In this document: positions 1 through 16,425 of the stretch, one piece after another
Numbering within the stretch: the stretch's first letter is position 1
Layout of the letters: every line of letters begins with the position of its first letter
Assembly: GCF_036013915.1 (NCBI RefSeq)
Contig: NZ_CP107899.1
Location: forward strand, 1 to 64,000
Reading direction: 5' to 3'
Origin: Streptomyces sp. NBC_00464
GTDB lineage: Bacteria; Actinomycetota; Actinomycetes; Streptomycetales; Streptomycetaceae
Length of the DNA: 64,000 nucleotides
Position numbers and translations under genes: made by a program
The notes under the pieces: model-generated
What the model saw: the letters and a program-made list of their open reading frames with translations, nothing else
What the model was told of the DNA's origin: nothing
The model's database searches: none

Positions 1-108
1 ACAGCCACGTGCGGTGCCGGCGGCGCCCGGTGGCACCGGCCGGGGAACAGCGCGGGCCCGGCGTTACGGGGTGCGCCGTGGCGCGCGGGCACGTAAGGTC
101 CTCTCCTC

Positions 109-1393
109 GTGGGCAGCTTCGTCGAAGGTCTCGTGCCGGCGCGGCTGGGCACCGGCTTCCGGTGCTGCTGGCGTCGTCGTGGACGAGCAACCTCGGCGAC
201 GGGATCGCGGTCGCCGCCGGGGCCGTTGCTGGTGGCGTCGCTCACCGGCAACGCGTTCCTGGTGTCGCCGGCGGCGCTGCTGCGGTGGGCGCCGCCGCTG
301 GTGTTCGGCCTGTACGCGGGGGTGCTGTCCGACCGGCTCGACCGGCGGCGGATCGTGATGACGGCCGACGGGGTGCGCGCCGCGGCCCTCGTCGTCGTGG
401 TCGCGCTGCTGGCCGCGGACCGGCTCACGGTGGTGCCCGCCCTCGTCGCGCTCGGCGCTGCTGACCACGGCGGAGGTGTTCGCCGACAACGCCGCCGCGA
501 CGCTCACGCCGACGCTGGTGCACCGCGACGACCCGGCCGTGGCCAACGCCCGCATCCAGGCCGGGTTCCTGACCCTGAACCAGCTGGTCGGCCCGCCGAT
601 CGGCGCGCGGCGTTGTTCGCGGCCGGCCTGGTGTGGCCGTTCCTCGCCGAGACGGTGCTCGTCGCCGCCGGGGTGCTGCTGGTCTCCCGGGTCGTCCTGC
701 CTGCCCGGACCAGGCCCGGGACCCGGCAGCCCGGGACCCAGCAGCCCGAGGCGAAGCGGTCCAAGGGGGTGCGGCACGAGGTCGTCGAGGGGCTGCGGTG
801 GACGGTCCGGCACCCCGCGGTGCGCACCCTGTCGCTGACGATCCTCATCTTCAACGTCACGTTCGGCGCCGCCTGGTCGGTGCTGGTCCTGTACGCCCAG
901 CAGCGCCTCGGCCTCGGCGCCGTCGGGTTCGGCCCGTTCACCACCGCCGGCGCCCTCGGCGGGCTGCTCGGCACCGCCATGTACGGCCGGCTGACCAGCA
1001 GGGTGAGCCTCGGCAACGGATGCGGGCCGGGCTGATCATCGAGACGCTCACCCGACCTGGCGCTCGCGGTCGACGTCGGCGGATCGCCGGTGCGGTCATG
1101 TTCGTCTTCGGCGCGCACGCGTTCATCTGGGGCACCACGTCGATCACCGTGCGGCAGCGGGCGGTGCCGAGCACCTGCAGGGCCGCGTCGGCAGCGTGAA
1201 CACGATCAGCGTCTTCGGCGGTCTGGTCGTCGGCTCCGCGATCGGCGGGGTCCTGGCGACCCGGGTGGGCGTGACGGCACCGTTCTGGTTCGCCTTCGCC
1301 GGCTCCGCGGTGTTCGTGGCGCTGCTGTGGCGCGAGCTGGACCTGCATCGCCCACGCCGACGACGTGCCGCCCACGACCCGGCGGAGCGATGA
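109..1393 (+). pseudogene. MFS exporter, frame-disrupted
   Basis: Major facilitator exporter of the EntS/MFS_3 type, an inner-membrane efflux protein. Hydrophobic pieces lie in all three forward frames and join into one protein. One frame carries LLVASLTGNAFLVSP and the loop SDRLDRRRIVM. Near 460 the sense moves to another frame (VFADNAAATLTP), near 605 it returns (FLAETVLVAAGVLLV), and the last helices are in a third frame from 1196 (VFGGLVVGSAIGG). At least four single-base shifts are needed. The GTG at 109 is a nominal start and the true one is uncertain. Codon bias is intact in every piece, so sequence error is as likely as real decay. The substrate cannot be told. Confidence 0.7.
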
Positions 1394-1487
1394 CCCCGCC
1401 GGCCAGGTGGACGACGCCCGGTAGCCGGCGGCACCTGGACGCCGTCGAGGGCAGCGGTGAGGGGCGCCGCTGGGACACAATGCCCGG

Positions 1488-2262
1488 ATGACGACGGACG
1501 AGCCCGCCTGGCGGCGCTGCCCGATGCCGGGTACTTCGACCGGTGGTACGCCGACATCGCGGACTCGACCAGCCGCGACGCGATCGTCGCCCGGATGCTG
1601 CAGCTGCCGGCGTACCTGCGCTCCACCAGCCTGTCTACCTGGCAGGGCGTCGCCGACGTGGAGGAGGCGCTGCGGGTGCCGCACGACGGGCTGCTGCTCG
1701 ACATCGGCTGCGGCCGCGCCGGGTACGGCATCGAGATCGCCCACCGCACGGGCGCCCGGCTGGTCGGCGTGGACTTCTCCGGCCACGGCGCTGCGGCAGG
1801 CGGCGGACGCGGCGGCGGAGCGGCTGCCGGCCGGGCGGGCCGAGTTCCGGGTCGGCACCCTGCTGGACACGGGCCTGCCGGGCGGCGCGGCGGACGCGGT
1901 GATGTGCGTGGACGCGGTGCAGTTCGGTGAGCCGCCGCTGGCCGCGCTGCGGGAGTTCCGGCGGCTGCTGAAGCCGGGGCGGCCGGGTGGCGCTGACCTG
2001 CTGGGAGGCCGCCGACCTGGACGACCCGCTGGTGCCGCGGATCCGGGCCGTACAGCTGCTGCGGGACCTGCACGAGGCCGGCTTCGCCGACGTCGACGTC
2101 CGGCAGCGGCCGGACTGGCGGCAGGCCGAGCGGACCTGTGGGAGGCGGTCGTCGCCGAGCCGGAGGCCGACGCGGCGATGCGGTCGCTGCAGGAGCAGGC
2201 GCCGGTCCCTGGAGACGTTCGCCTCGCTGCGCCGGGTGTTCGCCACCGCCACGGCACCCTGA
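1488..2262 (+). pseudogene. Class I SAM-dependent methyltransferase, frame-disrupted
   Basis: Cytoplasmic methyltransferase of the Methyltransf_11 type, moving a methyl group from SAM to a small molecule. The glycine-rich SAM motif is LLLDIGCGRAGYGIEIA (about 1694 to 1744), followed by the acidic end of strand 2 (LVGVDFSG). The frame then shifts near 1790 and again near 1980, where an extra G breaks the KPGGRVALTCW motif typical of this family. The C-terminal part resumes as LLRDLHEAGFADVDV. Four or five fragments must be joined for a protein of about 255 residues. The substrate is unknown. It lies between two transport genes on the same strand. Confidence 0.7.
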
Positions 2263-2395
2263 CCGCCGGTCCGCTCACCTCCTGCACGACCTGGCCGGAA
2301 GCAGGATTGACCGGCGCGCGCCGGGGCATTGCCGCGCCATGGGTGTGCACAACCCGCCGACCTGGCTGGCGCTCCGCATCGGCCGGTCGGGCTGA

Positions 2396-3596
2396 TGCCG
2401 GTGACCGGCGTCATCGTCGGTGCCGCCGCCGTCATCGCCGGGCTGGGCGCGGTGCTGGCGGGTGCTGGCGCCGCTGCTGGTCACCCTGGTCGTCGCCGCC
2501 GCGCTGCAGCCGTTCGTCCAGTGGCTGCGCCGGCACGGCCTCGCCGGCCCTGGCCGCGCTCGTCGGGGCGCTGCTGGTGCCGGCGCTGCTCGTGGTGCTC
2601 GGCTGCTCCTGGCGCACTCGCCGGCATGGGCGCGGCGTGGAGCGACGTCCTGGCCGGCGCGGGGGACGAGGTGCACGCCGCGCTGGGCGCCGACCCGCTC
2701 GACACGCCGCTGGGCTCGCCGCAGCGGCGCACCGCCGTGCTCGGCGTCGGCTCGGCCGTGCTGAGCGGCGCGCGGCGCTGGCCGTGCAGGCGGCGATCGG
2801 GGTCTTCGTGGCCGCGTTCGTCCTGTACTACCTGTTCAAGGACGGCCCGGCGGGCGTGGCGTGGCTCGAACGGCGGCTGCCGCTGCGGCCCGGCCTGACC
2901 CGGCAGCTGGTGTGGATGGTGCGGCGCTGCGGATGCGCCGGTACATCGTGGGCACCACCATCGTCGCGGGCATGGACACCGTCGTCATCACCCTCGGCGC
3001 CGTGGCGCTGCGGCTGCCGCTGATCGGGATGACGCTGATCACGTTCGTCGCGGCGTACGTGCCGTACCTCGGCGCGTGGGTCTCGGCGGCGTTCGTGGTG
3101 GTCGTCGCGCTCGGCGCCGGCGGCCCGGCCGCGGCCGTAGTGGATGCTGGTGATCGTGCTGGTGACGCAGAACATCCCGAGGTGCTGCGCCCGTTCGTGT
3201 TCGGCCGCGCCCTGGACCTGCACCCTGCGGTGATCCTCGCGGTCACCGTCGTCGGGGGCGCCCTGGCCGGCCTGGTCGGGGTGCTGCCGGCGCCACCGGT
3301 CGCGGCGATCGCCGTCTGGTGGAGCCAGATGCTGCACGACGAGCCGCATGCCGAGCCGCCTGCCGGGCCGCCTGCCGAGCCACCTGCCGAGCCACGTACC
3401 GAGCCACGTACCGAGCCGCCTGCCGAGCCGCCTGCCGAGCCACCTGCCGAGCCGCCTGCCGAGCCGCCTGCCGAGCCACGTGCCGAGCCGCCTGCCGAGC
3501 CGCCTGCCGGGCCGCGGGACGGGCCACGTGCCGAGCTGCGGCAGGAGCCGCCTGACGGGCCGCGGACACGGTGCCGGACGTGCTGGGAAAGCGTGA
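2396..3596 (+). pseudogene. AI-2E family transporter (UPF0118), frame-disrupted, with repeat tail
   Basis: Polytopic membrane protein of the AI-2E/PerM exporter family. The family core is clear from about 2930: GTTIVAGMDTVVITLG, LITFVAAYVPYLGAW, then QNIPEVLRPFVFGRAL and LHPAVILAVTVVGGALAG, which match the conserved C-terminal helices. The N-terminal half (LVTLVVAAALQPFVQWL) is split by frameshifts near 2460, 2545, 2620, 2770 and 2930. After the last helix the reading continues into a long Glu-Pro-Pro-Ala repeat (3341 to 3562), which is unusual for this family. The end is uncertain because all forward frames are open through the repeat; 3596 is the first plausible stop. It converges with the minus-strand cluster. 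Confidence 0.65.
3341..3562. repeat. 12-bp tandem repeat coding for (A)EPP
   Basis: About 18 near-identical units of GAGCCGCCTGCC with variants (ccg to cca, cctgcc to cgtacc or cgtgcc). In the transporter frame they read Ala-Glu-Pro-Pro or Ala-Glu-Pro-Arg. The unit length is a multiple of three, so copy number can change without altering the frame. No stop codon occurs in several frames, so open readings here on either strand are not evidence of extra genes. Confidence 0.9.
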
Positions 3597-3616
3597 CGCG
3601 CCGTCCCCGGCCCCGG

Positions 3617-4354
3617 TCAGTGGTCGCGCAGGCCGCCGGCGCCGTACACCTTGTCCTGGACGCCGTTGTCGCGCAGCGCCATCCACCAGGTGGCCGCGTT
3701 GATGGCGATCACCGGCTTGCGCAGCCAGCGTTCGGCCTCGTCGGCGAGGCGGACCATCGACAGGTTCGCCTGCACCGCACGATCGCGTCGACGTCGGGGC
3801 CGTCCACCTCGAGGATCGCCGCGCGTACTCGGCCTCGGTGACGTGCGCGATCGACACCGCTGTCGGGCAGCGCAGCCCCTTGATCCGCACCACCTCGAAA
3901 CCGAGCTCGGAGAGACCCGGACCACGTTCTCGTCGCCGACCGGCTGGTACGGGGTCACCACACCGATGCGGCGGGCGCCGTACAGGTGCAGCGCGCGCTC
4001 GCAGGCCTGGCGCCGGTGGCGACGCCCAGGCCGGTGATGCCGTGATCTGGGCGACGAACTTCGCGGTTGCCCTCGACACCGCCCCAGAACGTCTCCGCTG
4101 ACATGCCCATGACCATGAAGTCGGGCTCGCACGTCAGCACCCGCTCACAGGCGTGGCCGATCTCCGCCCGGATCTGGGTGAGGAGGTTCTCGAACCCCTC
4201 GTCGCTGGACAGGTCCTGGTTGCGGGATGTGGATGCGGGAGAAGTGGGCGGTCACGCCGGGCACGCCCATGGCGTAGAAGTCGGGTTCGACGATCGTGTT
4301 GGTCGAGGGGGCGATGACGCCGAACTTGTGGCGCCAGCCCAGGGCGTCGGTCAT
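3617..4354 (-). pseudogene. Maleate isomerase-like Asp/Glu racemase family protein, frame-disrupted
   Basis: Cytoplasmic enzyme of the Asp/Glu/hydantoin racemase fold, closest by motif to maleate cis-trans isomerase and arylmalonate decarboxylase. The N-terminus FGVIAPSTNTIVEPDFYAM is characteristic of that branch, followed by VTAHFSRIHIP and a middle segment with VLTCEPDFMVMGMSAETFW. The C-terminus ends GAGGLRDH before a TGA at 3617. Frameshifts near 4215, 4050, 3900 and 3780 split it. The ATG at 4354 overlaps the stop of the upstream membrane gene (ATGA), so it looks like the last gene of the minus-strand operon. Maleate isomerase gives fumarate; the substrate here is inferred only. Confidence 0.7.
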
Positions 4355-4986
4355 GCGGGCACCTCGATGGAGGGGAGCGGGCGAGCGACGGCAGGCGCGG
4401 ACGGTGAGCCACGCCGCGGTGAGGAACGCCAGCTGCGCGGCGGTGTTGGTGCCCTGCTCGATCCACTGCAGGCGCAGCGTCTCGTGCTCGGGGTGGTTGC
4501 GCAGCGGCACGAGCGCGGTCACCAGGACGATGCCGAGCGTGTACAGCGCGATCGCGGTCCTGGCCTGGCCGCCCGGCGTACCCGGCGCCGATGACGCTCA
4601 CGGTGGTGACGCCCGCGGTGGCGAGGACGAAGACCGGCTTCATCGTGCCGGCGACCAGGGCGCCGCCGGCCACCGCGGTGGAGACGGCCGCGAACGGCCA
4701 ACACGGCGCCGTCGGCAGCAGCGCCCAGACGAGGGTGACGGCGCCGGCGGACATGAGCGGGAACAGGGCGGCCTCCAGCCACGGCAGGTCCACGCCGAAG
4801 CCGGCGACGAGCAGCTTCCACGCCGACGGCTGGGCCGCCGGCGCCGATGAGCACCGCGCCGGCCCGCCCGGCGGTGACTCTCCCGGCGGTGCCGAGCCCG
4901 GCGAGGAGCCAGAACCCGGCCAGGGCCAGCAGCGTCGGTACGAAGTCCTCTACCGCCAGAATCACCGGGTAATCATTCGTGGTCAT
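4351..4986 (-). pseudogene. Small integral membrane protein, frame-disrupted
   Basis: Unrecognised membrane protein of about 210 residues with five or six predicted helices. Segments include VPTLLALAGFWLLAGLG near the start, a middle segment LMSAGAVTLVWALLP, VSTAVAGGALVAGTM, and a C-terminal helix LAFLTAAWLTVRA. Frameshifts near 4825 and 4575 break it. Its ATG at 4986 overlaps the stop of the dehydrogenase gene (ATGA) and its own stop overlaps the start of the racemase gene, so the three are probably translationally coupled. It could serve transport for the pathway, but no family signature supports a specific role. Confidence 0.55.
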
Positions 4987-5733
4987 GCGAAGAGGTCCCG
5001 TTTGCGGAAGGCGGCGGTGGCGAACCGGCCGACCGCCTTCGGGGTGGTGAGCCAGGCGACCGCCCGCCGTTGGGCACCCCGGCGAGGACCTGCTCGGCGA
5101 GCCACGGGGTGACGGTCTCGACGGTGTCGGCGAGGATGTTGAAGATCTTCTTCGCCTTGGCGAGCTCCTCCGGGGTGTAGTCCTGGGCGAGCAGGTCGGT
5201 GACGACCATGCCGGGCGACAGGTGCGCCACGGTGACGGGGGAGTCCTTGCCGAGCTCTTTGGCCAGGGCGTCGGTCAGGTACGTGACGGCGCGTTTCGTG
5301 GTGCCGTACGCGGCGAGCCCGGGCGCCTTCTGGTTGCCGGAGCCGAAGCCCTCCATGTTCCACAGGCCCCGTGCCCCCAAGGCGCGCATGGCGGCCAGGA
5401 CGACGGCGCTGGCGTGGGCGAGGCCGCGGAGGTTGACGTCGATGACGGCACGAGTTGCCGGCGGCGGTCCCGGCGGCCGGCGGCGGTGGGTGGTCCTTCG
5501 CGTTGTTGATCAGGATAGCCGAGCCCAGCCGTGCCGCGGCGGACGGTGGCCTGCTCCAGGTCGCGCACGCATGCGGTCGGTGACGTCGGCGACGACGCCG
5601 CGCACCGCGGTCCGGGTCACCGGCCGGCACTTGCCCGTCCACAGGACGACGGAAGCCCGGCGGAACGCCAGCACCAGCTCTTCGGCGCGTCGAGCGCGCC
5701 GCGGGTCCTCCCGGTCACCACGACGACGGTCAT
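4983..5733 (-). pseudogene. Short-chain dehydrogenase/reductase, frame-disrupted
   Basis: NAD(P)-dependent oxidoreductase of the SDR superfamily. The start MTVVVVTGRTRG gives strand 1 and the glycine-rich cofactor loop. The middle carries an NNA-type segment (ILINNAK). The active-site YGTTKRA fits the YxxxK catalytic pair and is followed by VAHLSPGMVVTDLL, the usual PG motif after helix 5. Frameshifts near 5690, 5560, 5450 and 5070 separate the parts. ATG at 5733 overlaps the stop of the upstream gene (ATGA). The length of about 250 residues fits the classical SDR size. The substrate is unknown; the operon suggests a carbonyl or alcohol intermediate of the same pathway. Confidence 0.75.
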
Positions 5734-6656
5734 GCCGCGCTCCAGGTGAGCGAGCCGTGCACGACGCCGGCGAGGGTGGCGCCCTCGTACACCCGGTACG
5801 CGACGGCCAGCACGGTGCCGGCGCCCATGCCGGGGGTGGCGTCGAGCATGAACTCCCCGGCCGGTCAGCTTCACCAATGGTGCAGTGCACGGTGCTGTAG
5901 CTGGCCCGGCCGAACGCGATCGTTGCCCCACGCGCCCGGCCCCTCGTAGAAGGCGCGGAACTCGTCGCGGCGCCAGTCCACCGTGTACGCGCGCTCCAGC
6001 GCGCCGGTCCAGGTGACCGACAGCCGGGTGCGCAGCAGGTCGAGCGGGGTGAGCGCGAGCTCCACGTCGACCGGCCCGGCGAGCTTCTGGTCCGCGCCCC
6101 ACAGCTCGCATCGTCCACTGTAGACGCCCGCCTGCTTGGTCGGCAGGACGAACGGCACCGGGCCGTTGGGGTCTCCGCCGCGAGGTGCGCGGCGAGGGTG
6201 TCGCCGTCCACGCCGCGCTTGTACACGCCGTTGAAGCAGCCGACGACCGCCGGTCCCTGGTACAGCATCGAGGAGTACACCTGGGTGTCGTCGCCGAGCA
6301 CCTGGTTCCAGGTGTTGAGGTCGACCCGCGCCAGCCGGGGCCGTAGTAGTGCGCGTCGACGAACGTGCCGTAGGCTGGCCGGTGCCGTAGAAGTCGGGGC
6401 CGGTGTAGATCCGGTCGGCGTCGGAGTCCACGACGCCGAACGCGAACGGCGCGCCGAGCCGGAACCGCCTGGCGAGCGGGCTGCCGCCCCTCGAGACCGG
6501 CCGTCCATGTAGTACGTGGTGACGCCGTCGGCGAAGACGGAGGAGCGGCGGGATGTCCTCGTAGCCGCGCCAGGTGCCGTCGGCGTCGAAGAGGCTCGGC
6601 CGGCCGTGCCACTCACCGGCGATGCGCTGCTGCCACTGCGAAGGCGAGGCGGTCAT
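5730..6656 (-). pseudogene. Protein of unknown family, possible beta-barrel fold, frame-disrupted
   Basis: Unrecognised protein of about 300 residues. The N-terminus is MTASPSQWQQRIAGEW. Later segments alternate short beta-like runs rich in aromatic residues and glycine (DRIYTGPDFYGTG, SMLYQGPAVVGCFNG, CELWGADQKLAG, and a C-terminal FMLDATPGMGAGTV). The pattern is compatible with a lipocalin or calycin-like barrel, but no known family is certain. Frameshifts occur near 6540, 6490, 6375, 6340, 6170, 5920 and 5870. It overlaps both neighbours by ATGA, which places it firmly inside the operon next to the two RCCR-like genes. Confidence 0.5.
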
Positions 6657-7384
6657 GACAGCGGACCGCCGATGAGCACGCCGCGGATCTCGTCGGAGGC
6701 GGCCTCGCCGAGCAGCCGCGACACCTGCGCCCACACCGGGTCGACCGCCGGGCTGGAACAGGTTGGCGCGCACGGTCGCGTCCCGGGCGGCCAGGTCGGT
6801 GTCGGCGAGCGTCGCGGTGACCTGTGCCGGCAGCCCGGCCGCGACCAGGTCGAGCCAGCGTGACGTAGGCGTCGACGATCGGGTCCATGCCCCGGAACGC
6901 GGCCTCGTCGGCGCGGTGCACCAGCATCCACGGCGACATCAGCGCGTGCTGGCGCGGGCCGATGTGCGCGCGGGTGAGCCCCTCGCGCTGCGACGCCTCC
7001 TCGTAGCACGCGGTCAGCGGATGGTACGCGCTGTCCATGTACGCCAGGTGCGACGACAGCTCGGCCCGGGGGATGAGGTCCAGGTGGTAGGCGTGGTAGC
7101 GCCGCTGTACACGGAGTCGAGCGTGAAGTGGCGGCACCGCCGACGCCGGGTCCGTGAACGCGAAGACCATGTGGCTGTCGAGGTCGATCGGGGTGCACGA
7201 CGAGGCCGACGTACACGATCCGGGACACCTCGCCGTCGCCCTGCCAGACCCGCATCGTGCCGACCGGCGCCGGCGACATGGGTGAGCGCAGCTCCCGGTA
7301 GGGCCCGCCGGCCTCGGTCAGCGGCTGCCGGGCGAGGATCGCGTCCAGGGCCCGGGTGGCCAGGGCGAAGGGCAGCGACGTCAC
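6653..7384 (-). pseudogene. RCCR/bilin-reductase-like protein 2, frame-disrupted
   Basis: Threaded across its frames, this protein of about 240 residues resembles red chlorophyll catabolite reductase, a ferredoxin-dependent bilin reductase relative from plants. Matching blocks in order: a strand ending in VVHP, HLDLIPRAELSSHLAYMD (plant counterpart LDLPHRKDLVLNPDYLKE), ALMSPWMLVHRAD (plant YVSPSLFVRSAF) and a C-terminal LAARD...LLGEAASDEIRG (plant ERRD...MFGEEVSSRV). These matches are from memory of the Arabidopsis protein. GTG at 7384 overlaps the Rieske stop (GTGA), preceded by GGAGGAAC. Frameshifts lie near 7190, 7110, 6850 and 6755. Whether it reduces a tetrapyrrole is inference. Confidence 0.55.
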
Positions 7385-8586
7385 AGTTCCTCCAATGTGC
7401 CGTTGTCCTCGGCGTCGCGGCGGGCCTTGCCGATCCGCTCCGCCTCGGCGACCGTGGGGTGTTCGCCCTTCGCCTTGTGCACCCAGGCGCGGGCCAGCTC
7501 CGGGTGCCCCCGCCGGGCCGGTGAGGCGATGACCGTGGCCTCTCGGCGCGGGACGTCGCCCATGATGCGGTCCTCCTCGCCCAGCAGCCAGCTCCTGCTC
7601 GGCCAGTTCCTGCCGGCGCCGCCGGTAGTGCACGGCGATGAGGCTATTCTTGACGTGCAGCTCGGCGCCGAGATCGAACGGCAGCAGCTCGGGGCGGACC
7701 CGGTCGATGACCGGGGCGTCCTGGCCGAAGATCTTCTCGACCCGCTGGACGGCGTTCCGGTCGGCCCAGTTGCCGGTGAAGCGTCGCGCAGCGCGACCCA
7801 CTTGACCAGCGTGGTCGTCTCGTCGACGGGGATGTTCGTGTCGTAGATGATGAGATTGCCCAGCGGCAGCCGGACGTGCAGCTTGATCATGTTCGGCAGC
7901 ATCCAGCCGGCGGTCGTCGCCACCGGCGGGCGGTCCTTGAGGTTGTGGCCGCGCCGGCCGACCAGCGACCAGATGCCCTTCGGCGCGGGCGGGGTGCAGC
8001 CGGACCGTCGCGAACGCCGACCACTGGTCGGGGATCTCCAGCTCGTACTCCTCGACGTCGGGGCGCTCCGGGTTGCCGAAGGCGCTGGCGTGCACGAACG
8101 GCGTGTGCGCGATGTCGCAGCCGTTCTCGAGGATCCGCTCGTAGTTGATCTCCACAGGTACTCGCCGGTGACCGCCTTGTACTGGCCGCCGTCGCCGACG
8201 AGGTCGTCGAACTCGGGCCAGACCGGGATCGGCGGGCGCTCGGCCTCCGGCAGGTCGCCGAGGAACACCCAGAGGAACCCGTAGCGCTCCCGGACCGGGT
8301 ACGAGTCGACCCGGGCCTTCTTCGGGATGCCGCGGCCCGGCTGGTTGGCCGGATCTTTCACGGCGCCGCCGGGCTCGTACTCCCAGCCGTGGTACGGGCA
8401 CACGATCGAGTCGTTGCTGACCCAGCCGCCGGACAGCGGCGCCGCGGTGGACGCACAGGTCCGACAGCGCGATCGCGGCCTCGGGTGCGGTACAGCACCA
8501 GCTCCTGGCCGAGGCACATGGCGCGCAGCGGGGTGGTGGTGACACGGTCGGCGAACTCGACCGCGTACCAGGTAGTTCTTCAACAT
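7381..8586 (-). pseudogene. Rieske [2Fe-2S] oxygenase, alpha subunit type, frame-disrupted
   Basis: Aromatic-ring or macrocycle oxygenase. The Rieske cluster motif is complete when frames are joined: CVHRGAPLSGGW followed by CPYHGWEYEPGG (CxH and CxxH ligands). The mononuclear iron site follows in NGCDIAHTPFVHASAF, the usual N/D-xxH-xxxxH arrangement. The C-terminus ends EDNGTLEEL. Length is about 400 residues. ATG at 8586 has AGGAG seven bases upstream. Frameshifts lie near 8510, 8450, 8160, 7990, 7790 and 7590. No reductase or ferredoxin gene is adjacent. Architecture fits both VanA-type and pheophorbide-a-oxygenase-type enzymes; the neighbouring RCCR-like genes make the second reading attractive but unproven. 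Confidence 0.75.
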
Positions 8587-8597
8587 GCGCGAGGCTC

Positions 8598-9558
8598 CTA
8601 GCGGCGCCGGACGGCCCACCAGGTCCGTAGAGTCGAGGGCGGCGGGGTCGCCGCCGCGCAGATGGGTGCGCAGGAACGCGGACAGCAGGCCGGCGATGAC
8701 GCCGCGGACCGTGGAGCCGCCGGCGGTGGACGGCCGGTCGAGGAACGAGCGGGCTGCGGTCGGGTCGGCGGGTTCCACGACGCTGAAGTGGTTGGCCCCC
8801 GCCGACGGTCGCCAGGACGTGCGCGCCGTCGCGGTCCTCGAGCGCCTCGTCGAAGGTGCGGCTGACCGGGTCGTGCGGGTCGCCGCCGGCGGCGCCGTAC
8901 CGGTCGGCGGAGGCGGCGATGACGCCGTCCTCGGTGCCGGCCAGCAGCAGCACCGGCGAGTCGACGAGTGCCTCCGCGACGGTGCCGGCGGGCCAGCCGA
9001 GCATCGTGGAGACCATGGTGTGCGCGCCGTAGGTGGCGACCGCCCGCACCTGCGGGAAGAAGCGGCCGGACTGCAGCGCGACGGTGCCGCCGGCGGAGTG
9101 GCCGAACAGCGCCACCCGGTCCAGGTCGAGCGCGCCGCGCAGGGCCGTCGGCGTGCAGCGCGGCGAGCTGCCGCAGGACCGGCTCGATCGCCTGGCAGGT
9201 GGGGCCGTCGCCGTACGTGCCGGGCCGGGCCAGGGCGAGGTCGACGCCGGGCGTGATGCCGACCTGGCCGGCGAACAGGGGGCCGACCCAGTCGTAGGTG
9301 ACCGTGGCGAAGCCCTGCCGGGCCAGTTCGACGGCGAGCCAGCGGTAGCCGTCCTGCCCGACGTTGACGCCGCTGAGCACGAGCACCACTGGTACGCCCC
9401 GCCGGCCGGGTCGGCCTGGAAGACGCCGCTGAGCCGTTCGGCGTCCGACCCGGTGACCAGCGCCGGGTAGTGCACCTTCAGGTGCGCGGTGGCGTAGGGG
9501 GCCTCGGCGCCGGAATCGTGACGGCGGACCACAGGGATCGGACTGTAAAGTGCGTCAC
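8598..9558 (-). pseudogene. Alpha/beta hydrolase, chlorophyllase-like, frame-disrupted
   Basis: Serine hydrolase with the nucleophile elbow GHSAGGTVALQ (reading VALFGHSAGG near 9100), a strand VVLVLSGVNVGQDGYRW for the oxyanion region, PVLLLAGTEDGV for the acid strand and a His in NHFSVVEP (near 8790). Order, spacing and the C-terminal VIAGLLSAFLRTHLRGGD resemble plant chlorophyllase (GHSRGG, then GHLDML, then VVSFLKAYLEGDD). General dienelactone-hydrolase or lipase identity is also possible. GTG at 9558 overlaps the stop of RCCR-like gene 1 (GTGA). TAG at 8598 lies 12 bases before the Rieske ATG. Frameshifts occur near 9520, 9390, 9160 and 8800. Confidence 0.6.
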
Positions 9559-10351
9559 GGGCGCGGCAGTTCGCGGTCGCCGCCCCACAGGGCGCGCACG
9601 AGACGCTGGGTATTCCTCGCCGAAGTACCGCACACCCATCACGTTGGCCGGGTCGCGCTCGGCGGATGTTGCGCCGGGTGGCGAGGTCCCGCTCGCGCAG
9701 CGCGGCGCGCTCCTCCTCGGGCACCGGGCGGCGCCTCGTCGACCCAGGCGAGCCACCGGTCGACCCGGGCGTGCAGCACGTCGCTGACGACCGTCAGGTT
9801 CCGTTCGGTGCGTTCGAAGGAGTACACGCCGTAGGCGTTGGGGACAGCGAGGCGCGGATGAACGCGGCCCGGCTGGTGAACCAGGCGAACTGCGGTCGGC
9901 CTTGTGCGCCAGCCAGTCGTCGTTGACGGGCGCGTAGTAGCGGTCGAAGTAGCCGCCGTCCACGACGATGTCGGTGCGCGGGATGTAGTCGGTGTAGAAC
10001 CAGCCGCCGGGCCAGCACAGCAGCGCGACGCCGAGGTGCAGGCCCGGACCTGCGGGCCGAGCCAGCAGGTCAGGCAGGTTGACGAAGCTGCGCGACGGGT
10101 CGCCCAGCCACGAGTGCACCATCCAACGGACCTCCGGCCCGGTTGTAGGCGGCCACCCGGCCGCCGGGTCCTTCCGGATACGTCCCGTACTGCTCCAGGA
10201 TGTCCGTGGACGGGTCGCGCGTCGTGGTGAACCTCGCGTCGATCTTGGCCTTGAGATCCGTCAGGAGCTGCTGGAACTGTGCGAAGGTGTCGACGTCGAT
10301 GACGGGCGAGGCGTCGAGCATCTCCTCGACGTGCTGGACGGTTTCCTCCAC
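9555..10351 (-). pseudogene. RCCR/bilin-reductase-like protein 1, frame-disrupted
   Basis: The better of two matches to plant red chlorophyll catabolite reductase. After joining frames, blocks run in the plant order: RWMVHSWLGDPSRSF (plant DFVIGSWIHCKI), YIPRTDIVVDGGYFDRYY (plant DLPHRKDLVLNPDYLKEYY), FTSRAAFIRASLSP (plant VSPSLFVRSAFSP) and RERDLATRRNI with RYFGEEYTQRLVRA (plant ERRDKSFRRKSI, MFGEEVSSRVVHA). Length near 260 fits mature RCCR. The GTG at 10351 with GGAGAG upstream is the chosen start. Frameshifts lie near 10140, 10040, 9895, 9840 and 9640. Known family members are ferredoxin-dependent reductases of linear tetrapyrroles. Activity here is inference. Confidence 0.6.
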
Positions 10352-10413
10352 GCGCTCACTCTCCAAGTCGTGCCGCAGCAATGGAAACAGTGTTTCGCCA
10401 CGGGTAACGGATG

Positions 10414-12004
10414 TCAACGGGTGAGGGCGTCGACGAGCTGCCACGGCCGGCCGTCGAGCAGGTCGGTGCCGCGCGACACGAGCTTGTTGCGGCTCTGCGC
10501 CGGCGCGAGCACCGCGGCCGCGGGCGCGTCGGCCGCCACGCCGGTGACGATCGGGTGGCTGATCCGGCCCGTGAACGGGCCCCGCCACGCGGTCCACAGC
10601 GTGAAGTCGGGGCTCAGCGCGTAGAAGGCGGCCGGCAGGCTCGGCGGCGCCGCGGCGACGATGTTGAGCCGGTTCTCCGCGGCCCGCTCCGGCAGCCCCA
10701 GCGCCAGCTCCCAGTCCTCGGCCGGGGTGAACGGCACGGCCACCACGTCCACGCCGGCGATCGCGGCCAGCCGGAACACCTTCGGGGTAGATGGCGTCGT
10801 CGCCGACGACCACCGCCAGGCGCCCCCACGGCAGGTCGAACGTGGCGAGGCCGTCGCCGTGCCGGCTGACGTCGGCGCCAGCCGCGCGACCGGGTGCAGC
10901 CGCGCCGCCGGCCGACGGTCCCGGTGCCGGACACCACCACGCCGGTGTGCGCGCCGTCGGCCAGGACGCTGGTCACCGCGACCGCGTCCGTGCCGTCCAG
11001 CAGCTCGCGCATCGCCGGCACCACCCAGGGCTCCGCCAGCTCGCAGCACGAGCAGGGCCGCGCCGGCGGCCAGCACGTCGCGCGTGGCGCTGCAGCGCCG
11101 GGTGTCGTCGCCCGTACGATGGCGGCCCGCACCGACCCCGAGGGCCTGCGGCCGGGCCGGGGCTCGCGGCGGGCGGCCGATCGCCGCGTAGAGCGGGCTG
11201 GCGGCGGGCGCCGAACCGGTCGGTGCCGTCGGGCCGGCGCTTGTCGAGGGCGGCGGCCGGGTCGATGTCGGCGACCACCACGGCCTCGCCGGTGCGCGGG
11301 CCCTTCGCCACGACGAAGCCGTCCGGCGCCACGACCTGGAGTTCTCCCCGGCGCCGTGCAGCCACTGCGGCGGCACCTTGAGCCCGGCGCTGATCGCCTC
11401 GAGCTTGTCCTCCGGCAGCAGCGGGCCGACCTTGCTGGCCGCCACCACCCAGACCCGGTTCTCCGCCGCCCGCACCGGATGTGCAGGCTCGCCTCGTCCG
11501 TGGCGAACGAGTTGGTGTTGTTGAGCAGCACCTGCGCCCCGCGCAGCGCGAGGCCGCGGGCCACTTCCGGCGCGACGCCCTCCATGCAGGCATACATGCC
11601 GACGGTACCGAACGCGGTGGGCACGACCGGGCCAGCTCCTCGCTCCCCAGGCGATACCGCCCGCCGTCCATCAGCACCTGCTCGTCGCTCGTCGAGCATT
11701 TCGGCGACGGCACGTAGAGCAGGCTGCGCCGGCGAAGTCACGTCGGCGAAGACGATGCGCGGAGTCGACGCGGATGCGCGGGTGCCCGGCCTTCCGCGAC
11801 CGCGGTCAGGAACGCGTCGCCGAGCCAGCAGGCCATGCGCCGGGCGTGGTCGCGGTCGTCGTACCACGACAGGTGGTTGCAGAAACCCGGCAGGACCACC
11901 AGATCCGCGCCCTCGGCGGCGGCCTGGTCGATCATCCGCAGGCAGCCCGCGAGGTTCGCGGACACGTCCTGACCGACGGCGAACTGGACAGCGGCAACCC
12001 TCAC
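10414..12004 (-). pseudogene. Double-domain nitrilase/amidohydrolase-like protein, frame-disrupted
   Basis: Carbon-nitrogen hydrolase superfamily protein of about 520 residues with two copies of the fold. Domain 1 starts RVAAVQFAVGQDVSANL, has the Cys motif MYACMEGVAPE near 11580 and ends RAAENRVWVVAASKVG. Domain 2 has the equivalent turn VVVGDDAIYPE near 10810 and ERAAENRLNIVAAAPP, with Gly where the catalytic Cys should be. The catalytic Glu and Lys are not clearly visible in domain 1 either. GTG at 12004 has a strong AGGAGG seven bases upstream, so it probably opens the minus-strand operon. Frameshifts lie near 11800, 11640, 11480, 11340, 11200, 11040, 10890 and 10785. Confidence 0.65.
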
Positions 12005-12082
12005 GAGGGCCTCCTGGTTCCTCTAGCGGAACAGTGTTTCCCGAACATACACTCGCCGCATGACCTGGCGAAAGAGAGGCCG

Positions 12083-12229
12083 ATGGTGGTGCTGACCCAT
12101 GTCGTCGTCATGAAATTCACGGATCCGGCCGGACGCGCCGAAGGCCAAGGAGCTGCTGGGCCGTCCGGACAAGAGCCTGCGCCGAGACTGTCCTGCCGGA
12201 CAGAGACTGGGGGGCGACCATCACCGACT
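12083..12229 (+). pseudogene. Dabb (stress-responsive A/B barrel) protein, truncated
   Basis: The start MVVLTHVVVMKFTDPA is typical of Dabb-domain proteins, small ferredoxin-fold dimers of about 95 residues. After one frameshift near 12133 the reading continues as PKAKELLG and is lost by about 12,200, roughly half the expected length. It is divergent from the nitrilase-like gene, 78 bases away. Loss of its second half next to the clean gene at 12238 marks the edge of the frameshift-rich region. Confidence 0.5.
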
Positions 12230-12237
12230 CTGATTCC

Positions 12238-13599
12238 ATGAGCCTTTCGCCGTTCCCCTCCGCCCCGCCCTCCTCCGAGCGTGTCGCCGCCGCGGTCCGC
12301 CACGCCGTCGCGACCGGCCTGCTGGGCGAGTCCAGCCCGGTCGTCGGGTTCGTCGACACGGACGGGGTACGCGACTCGGTCGCCGCTCTCCACGAGGCGT
12401 TCGCGGGGGTTCCCGGAGTGCTCCACACCTTCGCCGCGAAGGCCGCGTCGCTCGTCCCCGTGCTGCGGCTGCTCGCGGAGTGCGGCATGGGCTGCGAGGT
12501 CGCGAGCCCGGGTGAACTGCGGATCGCGCTCGATGCCGGGTTCGCGCCGTCGAAGATCGTCCTCGACTCCCCCGCCAAGACGCGTGACGAGATCAGGTGG
12601 GCACTGGCCCTAGGCGTGGCGCTCAACGCCGACAACCTCGACGAGGTGGACCGGATCGCGTCACTGCGGCCGTCAAACGCGGTGTCCGCCATCGGGCTCC
12701 GGGTCAACCCCCAGGTCGGCGGCGGCTCCATCGGCGCGATGAGCACGGCCACCGCCACCTCCAAGTTCGGCGTGGCGCTGCGCGATCCCGGCGCGCGGGA
12801 GCGGGTCGTGGAAGCGTTCGCGGCGCACCCGTGGCTGACGCGTCTGCACGCTCATGTCGGTTCGCAGGGCTGCTCCCTGGAGCTGATCGCAGCAGGCATC
12901 GGGGAGACGTACCGACTGGCCGAGGAGGTCAACGTCCGGGTCGGCCGCCGGCAGATCACCGGCCTCGACATCGGCGGCGGCCTGCCGGTCAACTTCGCCG
13001 ACGACACGGTCCGCCCCACCTTCGCCGCCTACGTGGCCGCGCTGCGCGGGGCGGTGCCGGGGCTGTTCGACGGGCGGTACGAGCTCGTCACCGAGTTCGG
13101 CCGGTCGCTGCTGGCCAAGAACGGCTTCATCGGCGCGCTGGTGGAGTACACGAAGGACGCCGGGGGCCGCCGGATCGCGCTCACCCACGCGGGCGCGCAG
13201 ACCGCCACCCGCACCGTCTTCATGCCGGACGCCTGGCCGCTGCGGGTCGGCGCGTTCGGCGCCGATGGACGAGCGAAGGCCGGGCCTTCGCTCGTCCAGG
13301 ACATCGCGGGTCCGTGCTGCTTCGCGGGGGACGTCGTCGCGCACGCCCGGGAGCTTCCGGAACTGCGGGCGGGCGACTACGTGGTGCTGTACGACACGGG
13401 CGCGTACTACTTCTCCACGCCGTGGGCGTACAACAGCCTGCCGCGGCCTGCGGTGTACGGATTCGGCACGGTGGCGGGCCCCGGGCAGGACGGCCCGGCG
13501 GTCCGCTTCGCCCCGGTGCGCGACGCCCAGTCGCTGGACTCGATCGCCGAAGAGAGCGGGCTGGCACACGCCGACGCCCTGCTGGAGCTGAACGCCTGA
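12238..13599 (+). CDS. PLP-dependent diaminopimelate/ornithine-type decarboxylase
   Basis: Fold-type III PLP decarboxylase (LysA/ODC group), 453 residues. The PLP lysine is K68 in HTFAAKA. The barrel carries HAHVGSQ (substrate/PLP His), LDIGGGLPV (phosphate-binding glycines) and TEFGRSLLAKNG. The C-terminal domain has GPCCFAGD, the active-site Cys motif that completes the dimer partner's site, and GAYYFSTPWAYN with the conserved Tyr. The substrate is not certain: it departs enough from housekeeping LysA to suggest a specialised amino acid decarboxylase. The ATG has no convincing ribosome binding site, and the upstream DNA belongs to the frameshifted region, so its true promoter may be missing. 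Confidence 0.85.
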   Translation: MSLSPFPSAPPSSERVAAAVRHAVATGLLGESSPVVGFVDTDGVRDSVAALHEAFAGVPGVLHTFAAKAASLVPVLRLLAECGMGCEVASPGELRIALDAGFAPSKIVLDSPAKTRDEIRWALALGVALNADNLDEVDRIASLRPSNAVSAIGLRVNPQVGGGSIGAMSTATATSKFGVALRDPGARERVVEAFAAHPWLTRLHAHVGSQGCSLELIAAGIGETYRLAEEVNVRVGRRQITGLDIGGGLPVNFADDTVRPTFAAYVAALRGAVPGLFDGRYELVTEFGRSLLAKNGFIGALVEYTKDAGGRRIALTHAGAQTATRTVFMPDAWPLRVGAFGADGRAKAGPSLVQDIAGPCCFAGDVVAHARELPELRAGDYVVLYDTGAYYFSTPWAYNSLPRPAVYGFGTVAGPGQDGPAVRFAPVRDAQSLDSIAEESGLAHADALLELNA

Positions 13600-13623
13600 G
13601 CCCTGGGGCACCTCTCCGATATT

Positions 13624-13649
13624 TAGTAGCCATGGACATAGTAGCCATG
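13624..13649. promoter_or_regulatory. Direct repeat TAGTAGCCATG x2, probable MarR operator
   Basis: The 11-mer TAGTAGCCATG occurs at 13624 and again at 13639, one and a half helical turns apart. The second copy lies inside the near palindrome ACATagtagccATGT. It sits 14 bases before the MarR gene start, a common place for autorepression. Confidence 0.5.
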
Positions 13650-13662
13650 TACTGTATCTGCC

Positions 13663-14148
13663 ATGGGCAACGCACTTGACGGTCCGACCCCCGGCTTCCT
13701 GGTCTGGCGCCTGTCGATGAAATGGCGGGTCGCCATCGACCGGGCGCTGAGGCCGCTCGGACTGACGCACGCGCAGTACTCGCTGCTGGGATCCCTGCTG
13801 GGGATGCAGCGGACAGGGCTGCGGCCGAGTCAGCGCGCACTCGCGGACCACACCGGATTCGAAGCGCTCTATGTCTCAAAACTGGCACGCAGCCTGGAAG
13901 CTGCCGGGCTCGTCGAACGGGCCGCCGACCCCGCCGACACCCGGGCGGTCCAGCTGTCCCTGACCGTCGAAGGCCTCAAGGTCGCCGACCACGCGGTCGG
14001 GATCGTGCGCCGGCTCGTCGACGGACTGCTCGCACCCCTGGGCGGTCTGGACGGCCCTGACGCCGAGGCGTTCACCCGGGCGCTGACGGCCCTGCTCGAC
14101 GTACCGGTTCCCGCAGTCACCGATCCACCCACCGAGGAGTCATCATGA
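13663..14148 (+). CDS. MarR family transcriptional regulator
   Basis: Winged-helix regulator of 161 residues. Residues about 30 to 110 hold the MarR domain: HAQYSLLGSLL, the recognition region QRALADHTGFEALYVSKLARSL and the wing DPADTRAVQLSLT with the family's D-x-R. It probably acts as a dimer responding to a phenolic or other small ligand, and may bind the repeated 11-mer just upstream. Its stop overlaps the start of the next gene (ATGA), so both are expressed together. Confidence 0.9.
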   Translation: MGNALDGPTPGFLVWRLSMKWRVAIDRALRPLGLTHAQYSLLGSLLGMQRTGLRPSQRALADHTGFEALYVSKLARSLEAAGLVERAADPADTRAVQLSLTVEGLKVADHAVGIVRRLVDGLLAPLGGLDGPDAEAFTRALTALLDVPVPAVTDPPTEESS

Positions 14149-14588
14149 CCACCGCACCCAGCGTCAACGGCCAGGTCATCGGGCAGGCCCACTACGCCAC
14201 GCGCGCCGTTCTGGAACGGCTGCTGGCAGAGACGGGCGCCACCTTCCACGAGTCCGTCGCACTGAACGCGACGGCGGACGGCGACGGGAGCATCGAGCGC
14301 GACCGGCTGGTCGAGCGGATGACCTCCACACTGAAGGTCGACACCACGACGGCCGAGGCAGCACTGTCCGGCCTGCTCGCGCAGGGGCTGCTGGAGGAGC
14401 AGTCGGCAGACGTGGCACGGCTGACCCTGACAGCCGCGGGCAAGGAGACGCACCGTGCGCAGCGGGCCGGGATCGCCACGATCACTGCCCGGCTGTACGC
14501 GGACCTGCCGGCCGAGGACATGGCAGCGGCCGGCCGGGTGCTGACCGAGCTCACGGCCCGCGCCAACGCCGTACTGGCCGAGGGCTGA
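14145..14588 (+). CDS. MarR-like winged-helix protein
   Basis: Protein of 147 residues coupled by ATGA to the MarR gene before it. It has a winged-helix-like organisation: a helix with AVLERLLAETG, a segment ERMTSTLKVDTTTAEAAL in the position of the helix-turn-helix, and LLEEQSADVARLTLTAAG as a wing. The sequence is more divergent than its partner and lacks the DxR wing signature, so it may be a heterodimer partner or a ligand-sensing companion. Confidence 0.7.
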   Translation: MTTAPSVNGQVIGQAHYATRAVLERLLAETGATFHESVALNATADGDGSIERDRLVERMTSTLKVDTTTAEAALSGLLAQGLLEEQSADVARLTLTAAGKETHRAQRAGIATITARLYADLPAEDMAAAGRVLTELTARANAVLAEG

Positions 14589-14616
14589 GCTCTCCGGCCG
14601 CCGGCGTCGGTGCCCG

Positions 14617-14841
14617 TCAGCCGACCGGTGAAGGCTCCGGCTCGGGCGGCGGCACCGGCTCGGGGTTCGGCGCGGGCGGCTGCGGGATCGGGTCCGGCGC
14701 CGGACCCGGGGGTGTGGGCACGGGCGGCGTCGGCCCCGGGCCGGGCGGAACCGGCGTGGGCTCCGGCAGCGGCCGGGGCGGCCCCGGCATCGGTCCGGGG
14801 GTGGGCGCCGGCGGTACCGGGTCGGGGAACGGGTGGGTCAT
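14617..14841 (-). CDS. Small proline-rich protein
   Basis: Seventy-four residue product from ATG 14841, chosen because GGAGG lies eight bases upstream. After MTHPFPDPVPPAPTPG almost the entire protein is Pro with Gly, Glu and Thr, with PEP and PTPP runs. It has no signal peptide or transmembrane segment, so it may be disordered and cytoplasmic or a spacer-like protein. Low-complexity composition makes coding status uncertain, but the ribosome binding site and the position, convergent with the MarR pair, support it. Confidence 0.45.
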   Translation of the reverse strand: MTHPFPDPVPPAPTPGPMPGPPRPLPEPTPVPPGPGPTPPVPTPPGPAPDPIPQPPAPNPEPVPPPEPEPSPVG

Positions 14842-14945
14842 CTCGGGCCTCCGAACGGTCGGGGTGGATCTCCTCCACCGTCTCCCGGAGCGGCTGCCCG
14901 CGCCCGGCGAGTCCACACGTACGGGCTGCGGATGCTCCGGCCGGT

Positions 14946-15584
14946 TCAGCGGGCGGCCGCGGCCGCCGCGGCCGCCAGGCCCGGTCGGGGGCTGGCCAGG
15001 ACCGGGATCCGGGTAGCCGTACGGGTGACCGCGCCCGCCATGGAGACCTGGGCCAGCACGATCGCATCGGCACCCGTCACGGCGTCGGCCGCTGCCGCCA
15101 CGAGATCCAGGTACCCGTCATGATCACCGGCTTCGAAACGCTCCCAGGCGCCGTCGACGAGAGCGGTGCGCACCTGCGCGGCCCGCTCCCCCGCACGCTC
15201 CGCCTCCTGGGCGAGCAGCGCCCGGGTCGGCTCCAGGGTCGCGGGGTGTGCCGCCAGAACGGTGACCCGCCCGGCACGGACGGCGTCGGCCGCCATCGGC
15301 CGGTCGACCCGAAGGACCGGAACGCCGAGGCGCGCCCCGACGGCCTCCGCGACTCCGCCGATCGTCGAGCAGGTGCAGAGCACGGCGGTGTCCCCGTCGG
15401 CGACCGCACCGGTGACCAGCGCCTCGACATCACCCTCGACCGCCTCCGGTCCCAGCACCCCGGCCCGGTCGAGCAGGTCCTTGTGCACGAGGTGGCGCAG
15501 GGCGAGGTCGGGGTGATGGGCGTCGCGCAGGGCGTCGAACACCGGGATGTGGGCCGGGGAGGTGTGCAGGAGTGCGAGGCTCAT
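14946..15584 (-). CDS. Asp/Glu racemase family protein
   Basis: Cytoplasmic protein of 212 residues. The N-terminal half has MSLALLHTSPAH and the first cysteine region TAVLCTCSTIGG; the second half has VTVLAAHPATLEPT and IVLAQVSMAG where a second catalytic Cys would be in a true racemase. Absence of that Cys suggests a one-base or non-racemising activity, as in some maleate-isomerase or decarboxylase relatives. The start at 15584 is the first Met in a sensible context. The C-terminus is a run of alanines. Confidence 0.75.
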   Translation of the reverse strand: MSLALLHTSPAHIPVFDALRDAHHPDLALRHLVHKDLLDRAGVLGPEAVEGDVEALVTGAVADGDTAVLCTCSTIGGVAEAVGARLGVPVLRVDRPMAADAVRAGRVTVLAAHPATLEPTRALLAQEAERAGERAAQVRTALVDGAWERFEAGDHDGYLDLVAAAADAVTGADAIVLAQVSMAGAVTRTATRIPVLASPRPGLAAAAAAAAR

Positions 15585-15607
15585 CCGCGACACGCTATCC
15601 CGAAGCC

Positions 15608-15970
15608 TCAGTAGAGCTCGGGGTGGACGGCGAGCTCCTTCTTGGCCCGCTCCACCAGCTCCGCCGGGGCCTCGGGGGCCTCGTCGGGGTGGCGCGACGC
15701 CCACTTCGCGGCGTACGGGCAGAGCGGGACGACGGGGACACCCTCTCGGGCCGCCATGGCGTAGAACTCCTTGACCAGGGAACCGCCGATGCCCTTGCCC
15801 TCGTGCCCCTGCTCGACGACGGTGTGCACGGCGACGAGCGCCGCGGGCGTCCCGTCCAGCACGAAGTACACGATGACCCCGGCGGCCTCACCGTCCAGGT
15901 ACGCGAGCAGCTTGCCCGCGGCCCGGTCGTCACTGATCCGGGGTCCGGTCTGTCCGGCCTGCTCCGCCAT
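15608..15970 (-). CDS. GNAT-type N-acetyltransferase (YjdJ/COG2388-like)
   Basis: Short acetyltransferase of 120 residues. The acetyl-CoA loop is EQGHEGKGIGGSLV (Q-x-x-G-x-G type), followed by PLCPYAAKWASRHPD, the usual end of this minimal GNAT group. ATG at 15970 has AGGGAGCAGGAG just upstream. It lies 24 bases beyond the start of the racemase gene and may share its transcript, as well as that of panD upstream. The substrate is unknown. Confidence 0.85.
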   Translation of the reverse strand: MAEQAGQTGPRISDDRAAGKLLAYLDGEAAGVIVYFVLDGTPAALVAVHTVVEQGHEGKGIGGSLVKEFYAMAAREGVPVVPLCPYAAKWASRHPDEAPEAPAELVERAKKELAVHPELY

Positions 15971-15999
15971 GGCTCCTGCTCCCTTGTGAGTGAGACGCT

Positions 16000-16425
16000 T
16001 CAGCGCGCCGCGGGCACGGCATGCGGGCTGCGCTCGGTATCGGTCCCCGGCACGGGCGCGGAGGCGTCGGCGCCGAGCTCGACGATCCGGTTTGCCGCGT
16101 CGACATGGACGATACGCGGAATTAGGCCGCGCGCCTCGGTGTCGTCGACCTGCGCATAGCTGATCAGGATGACCAGGTCGCCGGGGTGCACGAGATGGGC
16201 GGCGGCACCGTTGATCCCGATGACACCGGAGCCGCGCTCGCCCTCGATGACGTACGTCTCCAGGCGGGCGCCGTTGTCGATGTCGACGATGTGGACGAGC
16301 TCGCCGGGCAGCAGGTCGGCGGCCTCCATCAGCGCGGCGTCGACCGTGACGGACCCGACGTAATGCAGGTCGGCCTGGGTCACGGTGGCTCGGTGGATCT
16401 TGGACTTGAACAGAGTGCGCAGCAC
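16000..16425 (-). CDS. panD: Aspartate 1-decarboxylase
   Basis: Makes beta-alanine from L-aspartate for pantothenate and CoA. The product has 141 residues. Gly24-Ser25 in HYVGSVTVD is the self-cleavage site that creates the pyruvoyl cofactor; K9 ([10 protein letters not shown]) and the INGAAAHLV segment match the family. The C-terminus is a little longer than in E. coli, as usual in actinobacteria. AGGAG lies upstream of the ATG at 16425. Downstream on the same strand lie the GNAT and racemase genes. Confidence 0.95.

Follow-up and report, generated by a model that had tools for sequence, protein, structure and literature searches.

A conserved actinobacterial operon with two RCCR-fold proteins and a Rieske oxygenase, possibly for the breakdown of chlorophyll-type pigments

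Do bacteria possess a counterpart of the plant pathway for chlorophyll breakdown? The question is raised by the window, that is, the whole stretch of 64,000 nucleotides at the start of contig NZ_CP107899.1 of Streptomyces sp. NBC_00464, in which a preliminary description had reported nine minus-strand genes, among them two for proteins resembling plant red chlorophyll catabolite reductase (RCCR), one for a chlorophyllase-like hydrolase and one for a Rieske oxygenase of the pheophorbide a oxygenase (PaO) plan. To our knowledge, no bacterial pathway for chlorophyll breakdown in soil has been known. Chlorophyll turnover is estimated at a billion tons per year (PMC12930011). We give an even chance to the reading that the operon stands in the middle of a regulon with which actinobacteria degrade a chlorophyll-type tetrapyrrole, most likely the Mg-free phaeopigments of dead plant or algal matter. 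The gene order is kept across many genera, far beyond chance, and an operator-like site that recurs at other genes ties the operon to them.

The nine genes are indeed present, from 12004 down to 3617 of the window, where the preliminary description had placed them (Table 1). Between 12022 and 3617 the minus strand carries coding sequence whose frame switches over and over; frame-changing indels occur in every one of the nine genes, 3 to 24 per gene when the intact Dactylosporangium genes of locus L057 serve as the reference. Searched against Pfam as unjoined pieces, the window genes are nearly blank (the best RCC_reductase match has 10.4 bits against a cut-off of 24.9), and the window copy was not reported by the family search of its own genome. 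Because the frameshifted pieces are barely recognised, gene identities were taken from intact relatives. With a single Actinomadura protein as the seed, a scan of named genomes gave 45 loci, and the sample leans to the kin of that protein. Before loci were counted, L052 and L042 were dropped, having been judged the same contigs as L014 and L015 (counts of neighbouring genes use L042 in place of L015). Genes in the relatives were found with a codon-model caller for GC-rich DNA; their starts are best guesses, some Dabb, RO and MEM calls are short or misframed, and the misframed RO of L037 was left out of the alignments. Protein searches list the best 120 of 357 and the best 120 of 411 matches.

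Table 1. Features of the operon copy and its surroundings in the window.
Feature	Description	Position	Strand	Remark
CNH	double carbon-nitrogen hydrolase (nitrilase/amidase superfamily), operon gene 1	10411..12004, ends approximate	-	frameshifted; pieces match intact orthologues
RCCR1	RCCR/FDBR-superfamily protein	9555..10351	-	orthologue profile matches
HYD	alpha/beta hydrolase, chlorophyllase/PETase/DLH-like	8598..9558	-	orthologue family matches
RO	Rieske non-haem iron oxygenase, VanA_C type	7381..8586	-	iron ligands invariant in relatives
RCCR2	second RCCR/FDBR-superfamily protein	6653..7384	-	
CAL	two beta-barrels, DUF3598/BFA1 fold, without Pfam family	5730..6653, ends approximate	-	
SDR	short-chain dehydrogenase/reductase	4983..5733, ends approximate	-	orthologue PF00106 5.2e-37; window pieces match
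MEM	membrane protein without family	4360..4986, ends approximate	-	multi-pass judged by eye
RAC	arylmalonate-decarboxylase-like protein	3617..4354	-	PF17645 in orthologue
Dabb gene	Dabb-domain gene, 5' part, divergent from operon	12083..12159	+	cut where Dactylosporangium similarity ends
Operator-like site 1	palindrome, variant GGAACNNNGTTTC, upstream of CNH	12028..12040		
Operator-like site 2	palindrome GGAAACNNNGTTTC, about 33 bp upstream of RCCR1	10383..10396		only exact copy in 8.96 Mb genome
Collinear segment	collinear with Dactylosporangium aurantiacum NRRL B-8018	63..12159		three aligned pieces, 3372-3544 unaligned; indels throughout

The preliminary description had proposed looking for the same gene order in other actinobacterial genomes, and there it was found. 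Of 49 distinct loci, 37 have all nine genes on one strand in the order CNH-RCCR1-HYD-RO-RCCR2-CAL-SDR-MEM-RAC, and in 47 the four genes RCCR1-RO-RCCR2-CAL are unchanged in order and strand; the two exceptions are an inversion in L021 and a missing CAL match in L055. Among the genera represented are Actinomadura, Thermomonospora, Catellatospora, Actinoplanes, Paractinoplanes, Streptosporangium, Nonomuraea, Dactylosporangium, Nocardia, Yinghuangia and Streptomyces. Measured from the best-guess starts, neighbouring genes of intact loci are separated by a median of -4 bases at six of the eight junctions and of 7 to 8 at the remaining pair. Two distant Actinomycetota from an evenly drawn phylum sample (G635 and G677) still have RCCR1-RO-RCCR2-CAL adjacent, at 37-48% identity. 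Both also carry CNH and an HpcH/HpaI lyase gene near this block (L071 and L072, respectively); an IclR gene is found in G635, and RAC and an FAD monooxygenase in G677. Near the block in G635 (L071 692-12346) are also genes for hydantoinase A/B, isochorismatase, MmgE/PrpD and CoA-transferase III. An RCCR1 relative from a metagenome-assembled genome of Chloroflexi (P0226) is among the best 120 of 411 matches listed. In evenly drawn samples RCCR2 matched in 7 of 392 genomes of the genus, the genome of the window included, and PF06405 in 2 of 396 genomes of the phylum, in a search that misses the broken window copy.

Both RCCR-like proteins belong to the RCCR/FDBR superfamily, as had been proposed, on profile, sequence and structure evidence from the orthologues. 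In the case of RCCR1, the orthologue in L018 scores 55.3 bits against PF06405 (cut-off 24.9) over residues 28-256, near its full length, and the RCCR1 profile matches AtRCCR at 3.7e-15 over most of its length and GtPEBB at 8.9e-9. The three motif blocks quoted in the preliminary description correspond to aligned stretches of AtRCCR. The RCCR2 orthologue of L018, with 18.1 bits, lies below the same cut-off; 8 of 30 RCCR2 members match PF06405 and 6 of 30 match PF05996 at E<=0.01, and fold comparison gives RCCR2 the RCCR/FDBR fold. A search for a better match in a non-bilin family returned RCCR as the best sequence match of both proteins, except for a single RCCR1 sequence in which a plastid bilin reductase came first. 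By structure, RCCR and bilin reductase are tied for RCCR2, and among the strong structure matches listed for its fold nearly all are tetrapyrrole enzymes (RCCR, bilin reductases and coproporphyrinogen oxidase).

The acidic residues give a more mixed picture. In AtRCCR the acidic pair is Glu154 and Asp291. For GtPEBB, Asp99 and Asp219 are described as needed (PMC6755814). At the Asp291/Asp219 position RCCR1 has an invariant D234; 31 of 31 sequences, and 10 of 10 of a wider set, have Ala at the Glu154/Asp99 position, and the pair is thus incomplete. RCCR2 has an invariant D104 at the Asp99/Glu154 position. Its second acidic position, D229 of a DPVW motif, is found by motif only and lies two residues off in the alignment; it is probably the Asp219/Asp291 counterpart. 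RCCR1 need not be dead, because vascular-plant HY2 likewise has no central Asp and uses another Asp instead (PMC6755814). It may nevertheless not perform plant RCCR chemistry.

The oxygenase claim held in one half. RO is a Rieske oxygenase: the cluster residues C46, H48, C65 and H68 (CxH/CxxH) and the iron ligands D161, H164 and H169 (D-x2-H-x4-H) are invariant in 26 proteins. Identity as a pheophorbide a oxygenase was ruled out, since PF08417 matches 0 of 26 RO proteins at E<=1 and VanA_C matches all 26; RO is of a general VanA/SxtDIOX type. The PAO/Tic55 group has a C-terminal CxxC motif; in the RO of L018, whose sequence was inspected, no cysteine follows the NGCD iron-ligand motif. Elsewhere in the genomes, away from RO, a PaO match is found in 2 of 20 at E<=0.001, one of them over the cut-off. 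The hydrolase claim was similarly divided. A chlorophyllase/PETase-type hydrolase does lie in the operon, but the HYD of L018 scores 24.6 against chlorophyllase PF07224, under the cut-off of 26. Among 25 HYD orthologues, in all of which the GGHSAGG motif is invariant, 13 match chlorophyllase at E<=0.001, compared with 19 for DLH and 17 for PETase. Beside the L018 operon, a hydrolase of family f17 with a signal-like N-terminus passes the chlorophyllase cut-off (31.1 vs 26) and scores higher for PETase (37.6 vs 28); the f17 copy in L048, at 23.8, is below the chlorophyllase cut-off. HYD is absent from its usual place in L041 and L045, where the nearest match lies downstream of RAC, has 28-29% identity and groups with f17.

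CAL and RAC extend the set beyond the plant enzyme classes. CAL has no Pfam family at E<=5 and no PDB sequence match at E<=10; it shares its two-barrel fold with BFA1 and with a DUF3598 protein of Nostoc. From BFA1/DUF3598 (5yvf, 2o62) it differs by having 7-10% identity, no Pfam match and a Rieske oxygenase as operon partner. RAC is the best conserved of six aligned proteins, with a mean column identity of 88% against 51-74% for the other five. Its orthologue scores 72.7 bits against PF17645 (Amdase; cut-off 25.9), with C196 at the position of Cys188 of arylmalonate decarboxylase (AMDase) and G83 at that of Gly74, both invariant in 23 sequences. Cys188 is the single catalytic cysteine of AMDase, and racemases and isomerases have their other cysteine at the Gly74 position. 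Unlike AMDase, RAC has Met at the Thr75 position and falls below the NCBIfam arylmal_decarb equivalog cut-off (NF052327; 66.5 vs 225), and in the structure database maleate isomerase (4.4e-11) and AMDase (1.1e-10) are equally good matches. Of the remaining proteins, the CNH orthologue in L018 matches PF00795 at 1.1e-37 in two stretches, the MEM orthologue has no Pfam match at 0.01, and the Dabb gene orthologue in L014 matches PF07876 at 1.6e-14.

What joins the operon to other genes is the operator-like palindrome. An alternative pattern, GTTCCN6GGAAC, was dropped as it occurred in only 10 of 48 loci, and GAAACN3GTTYC was adopted instead. The 953,362 bases of 48 loci contain 72 copies of GAAACNNNGTTTC, where each of ten resampled sets contains 0-1. 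In 47 of 47 loci GAAACNNNGTTYC stands in the interval from 150 bases ahead of the guessed CNH start to 30 bases past it, and in L060 and L061 it is just inside that start. The loci are related, and these counts are therefore not independent. The site also stands ahead of hydrolase family f14 (12 times), RCCR1 (7) and a flavin reductase (2). Counted over whole genomes, GGAAACNNNGTTTC occurs 1 to 5 times in each of seven, and a reversed control pattern matched once over all seven. For instance, all five sites of the 8.6 Mb genome G778 fall within 26 kb at the cluster, and both sites of G074 within 25 kb upstream of CNH. Single sites elsewhere in G784 and G089, and G781 with its three sites on three contigs, speak against a strict regulon. 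The G089 site (C1:2034025-2034038, L095), an exact copy 52 kb away from the cluster that falls within a predicted gene and beside molybdenum-cofactor-like genes as judged by eye, is probably due to chance.

Beside the sites, or in the same gene strings, lie genes for IclR, a flavin reductase, an acyl-CoA-dehydrogenase-like monooxygenase, two aldehyde dehydrogenases, an FAD monooxygenase and an MFS protein, as well as CoA-transferase III, a cyclase, MmgE/PrpD, an HpcH/HpaI lyase, an isochorismatase and an HMGL-like lyase. Also linked are an amidohydrolase that is allantoinase/dihydropyrimidinase-like (below equivalog cut-offs), a neocarzinostatin-family protein and WxL-like proteins below the cut-off. 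Within the DNA of 49 loci, whose ends cut some neighbours off, the FAD monooxygenase is found in 42, the acyl-CoA-dehydrogenase-like protein in 32, the flavin reductase in 24, IclR in 22 and a PrpB-like lyase in 14. IclR is the candidate regulator and would bind the site. The FAD monooxygenase, the sole upstream catabolic gene searched for in the genome of the window, has only distant relatives there. Signal-like N-termini were seen near operator-like sites at L093 6575-13510, L094 3529-6613 and L092 11292-18852, in neocarzinostatin-family proteins, WxL-like proteins (below cut-off) and proteins chlorophyllase-like by similarity. Proteins of this kind could possibly form a surface apparatus for a hydrophobic pigment.

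How might these parts work together? Protein families, folds, gene order, close spacing and the common operator-like site come from the sequence and structure comparisons, while chlorophyll as the substrate, each reaction, the order of the reactions, the role of CAL and the binding of IclR to the site are inferred. Secreted chlorophyllase-like enzymes and HYD would cut ester groups, and RAC, as a cofactor-free decarboxylase, would remove the freed beta-keto acid on the isocyclic ring. RO could then open the macrocycle with ferredoxin, CAL would bind the open chain, and RCCR1 and RCCR2 would carry out two ferredoxin-dependent reductions in the manner of a PebA/PebB-type pair, to be followed by oxidative cutting to pyrrole-derived imides. 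The linked imide and amide hydrolases, CoA-transferase, MmgE/PrpD and citrate-lyase- and PrpB-like lyases, together with the FAD and acyl-CoA-dehydrogenase-type monooxygenases and the aldehyde dehydrogenases, would take the pyrrole pieces to central metabolites, with the IclR regulator in control. A search for the Staygreen Mg-dechelatase (PF12638) matched 0 of 20 operon genomes, the same search giving 0 control matches, while the phylum search found it in 3 other genomes of 396. Its lack, in a search that had no positive control, would fit pigments already without Mg. A more far-reaching proposal, which we offer tentatively and hold to be somewhat doubtful, is that the IclR-controlled regulon marked by GGAAACNNNGTTTC mineralises chlorophyll fully: secreted esterases and neocarzinostatin/WxL-like surface proteins would take in the pigment, the non-PaO RO and the two RCCR-fold reductases would open and bleach it, and hydrolases, CoA-transferase and C-C lyases would finish the pyrroles.

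Other substrates must be weighed against chlorophyll. The same type of regulon could serve a tetrapyrrole other than chlorophyll, such as urobilinoids or the bilins derived from haem, and RO would then act on a side chain or on a chain that is already open. We consider this rather unlikely, and prefer the isocyclic ring of chlorophyll because of the decarboxylase and esterase pair: the core esterase and the AMDase-type decarboxylase have an obvious job on that ring and none on haem. Nor was a haem oxygenase noticed in the cassette, though none was searched for. That the substrate is no tetrapyrrole at all, the RCCR fold having been recruited for another conjugated N-heterocycle such as a plant alkaloid, a microbial pigment or a humic compound, is in our view unlikely, yet several observations weigh for it and against a chlorophyll substrate. 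RCCR1 is without the central carboxylate of its family, the fold of RCCR2 is also carried by two chains of chloroplast FtsHi motor complexes, the oxygenase is of a general type, and the linked hydrolases and lyases would suit many imides or lactams. Set against these is the company the proteins keep: two distinct proteins of a superfamily in which the characterised enzymes have tetrapyrrole substrates, together with a DUF3598/BFA1-fold barrel, stay together over large evolutionary distances. A further reading is a cluster that makes a modified linear tetrapyrrole as a natural product. The operon of G074, compact and close to the end of its contig (C1, about 69-78 kb of 8.7 Mb), and the patchy distribution within the genus would suit such a biosynthetic role, but we hold it to be very improbable: the operator-like site is common to degradation-type enzymes, an IclR regulator is nearby, there are hydrolases whose N-termini look like signals, and the operon is conserved in many genera of actinobacteria.

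The nearest comparison is the plant PaO/RCCR (phyllobilin) pathway, with which the operon shares a Rieske oxygenase, an RCCR-family reductase and a chlorophyllase-type hydrolase. PaO uses ferredoxin. Plant RCCR does so too, according to PMC4950323, and the redox enzymes of the operon would do likewise. The operon differs in its oxygenase, which is of VanA_C type and not PaO, in having two RCCR-family proteins where the plant pathway has one, in additional genes for a barrel protein, a decarboxylase-like protein and an amidase, and in a bacterial organisation in which degradation genes are joined by one operator-like site. The outline would resemble the PaO/RCCR pathway, and one protein passes the RCCR profile test, but by its oxygenase the operon is not a member of the PaO pathway. 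The nearest published system found in the literature searched is the work on pre-PcyA in PMC10151467. In that work, FDBR-superfamily enzymes are likewise placed in non-photosynthetic bacteria, but the clusters contain bilin-binding globins, V4R and Fe-S proteins; RCCRs serve as the outgroup, and by term count 'Rieske', 'Streptomyces' and 'actinobacter' are absent from its main text. The preliminary description knew of no described bacterial operon with this set, and none of this kind was found among the matches listed in the literature searched, a scope that leaves subscription papers and preprints outside. An operator-marked, conserved operon with two RCCR-fold proteins supplies named genes, genera and strains for testing bacterial chlorophyll breakdown, and RCCR-type proteins beside an oxygenase in heterotrophic bacteria bear on the origin of plant RCCR. 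If the proposal of full mineralisation is true, the regulon would supply the counterpart of the plant pathway that has been missing from soil bacteria, one that relies on an unrelated oxygenase branch.

The window copy itself is probably foreign to its host genome. The three collinear pieces have 90.9, 93.7 and 92.5% nucleotide identity to Dactylosporangium, more than the Streptomyces cassettes compared, and they include unrelated genes at 63-3371. The similarity ends sharply at 12159, inside the Dabb gene; the DNA before this point is error-rich, and long intact Streptomyces open reading frames resume at 12238. Mismatches in the genes at codon positions 1, 2 and 3 number 110, 104 and 201, a pattern that looks like a uniform background of errors on top of ordinary synonymous divergence. 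The tip of the window is thus quite likely an unpolished chimeric or contaminant contig end and not a decayed transfer, which does not weaken the operon finding because that finding rests on the relatives. A recent, decaying horizontal transfer from Dactylosporangium to Streptomyces appears improbable. In its favour, the ends of Streptomyces chromosomes are recombinogenic, no sequencing adapter was found in the window at up to 3 mismatches, and only 57 of the 148 gap openings against Dactylosporangium are in runs of three or more, so the indels are not mainly homopolymer errors. Against a transfer, the similarity continues through unrelated flanking genes and stops within a gene, the mismatch excess is confined to position 3, as random read errors over ordinary divergence would give, and the reading frames are long and intact from 12238 on. 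No terminal inverted repeat was seen for 12100-20000, and plasmid records, searched in 'near' mode, gave no match.

Beyond the junction, two further regions were seen by eye. At 22412-25188 an AurF-like di-iron protein is followed by a ferredoxin-fused NADP reductase, for which no link to the operon is claimed. At 34564-49177 a row of large glycosidases stands with an ABC transporter, a sulfatase, a ROK-type regulator and a formylglycine-generating-like enzyme, and this looks like a region for the utilisation of sulfated glycans.

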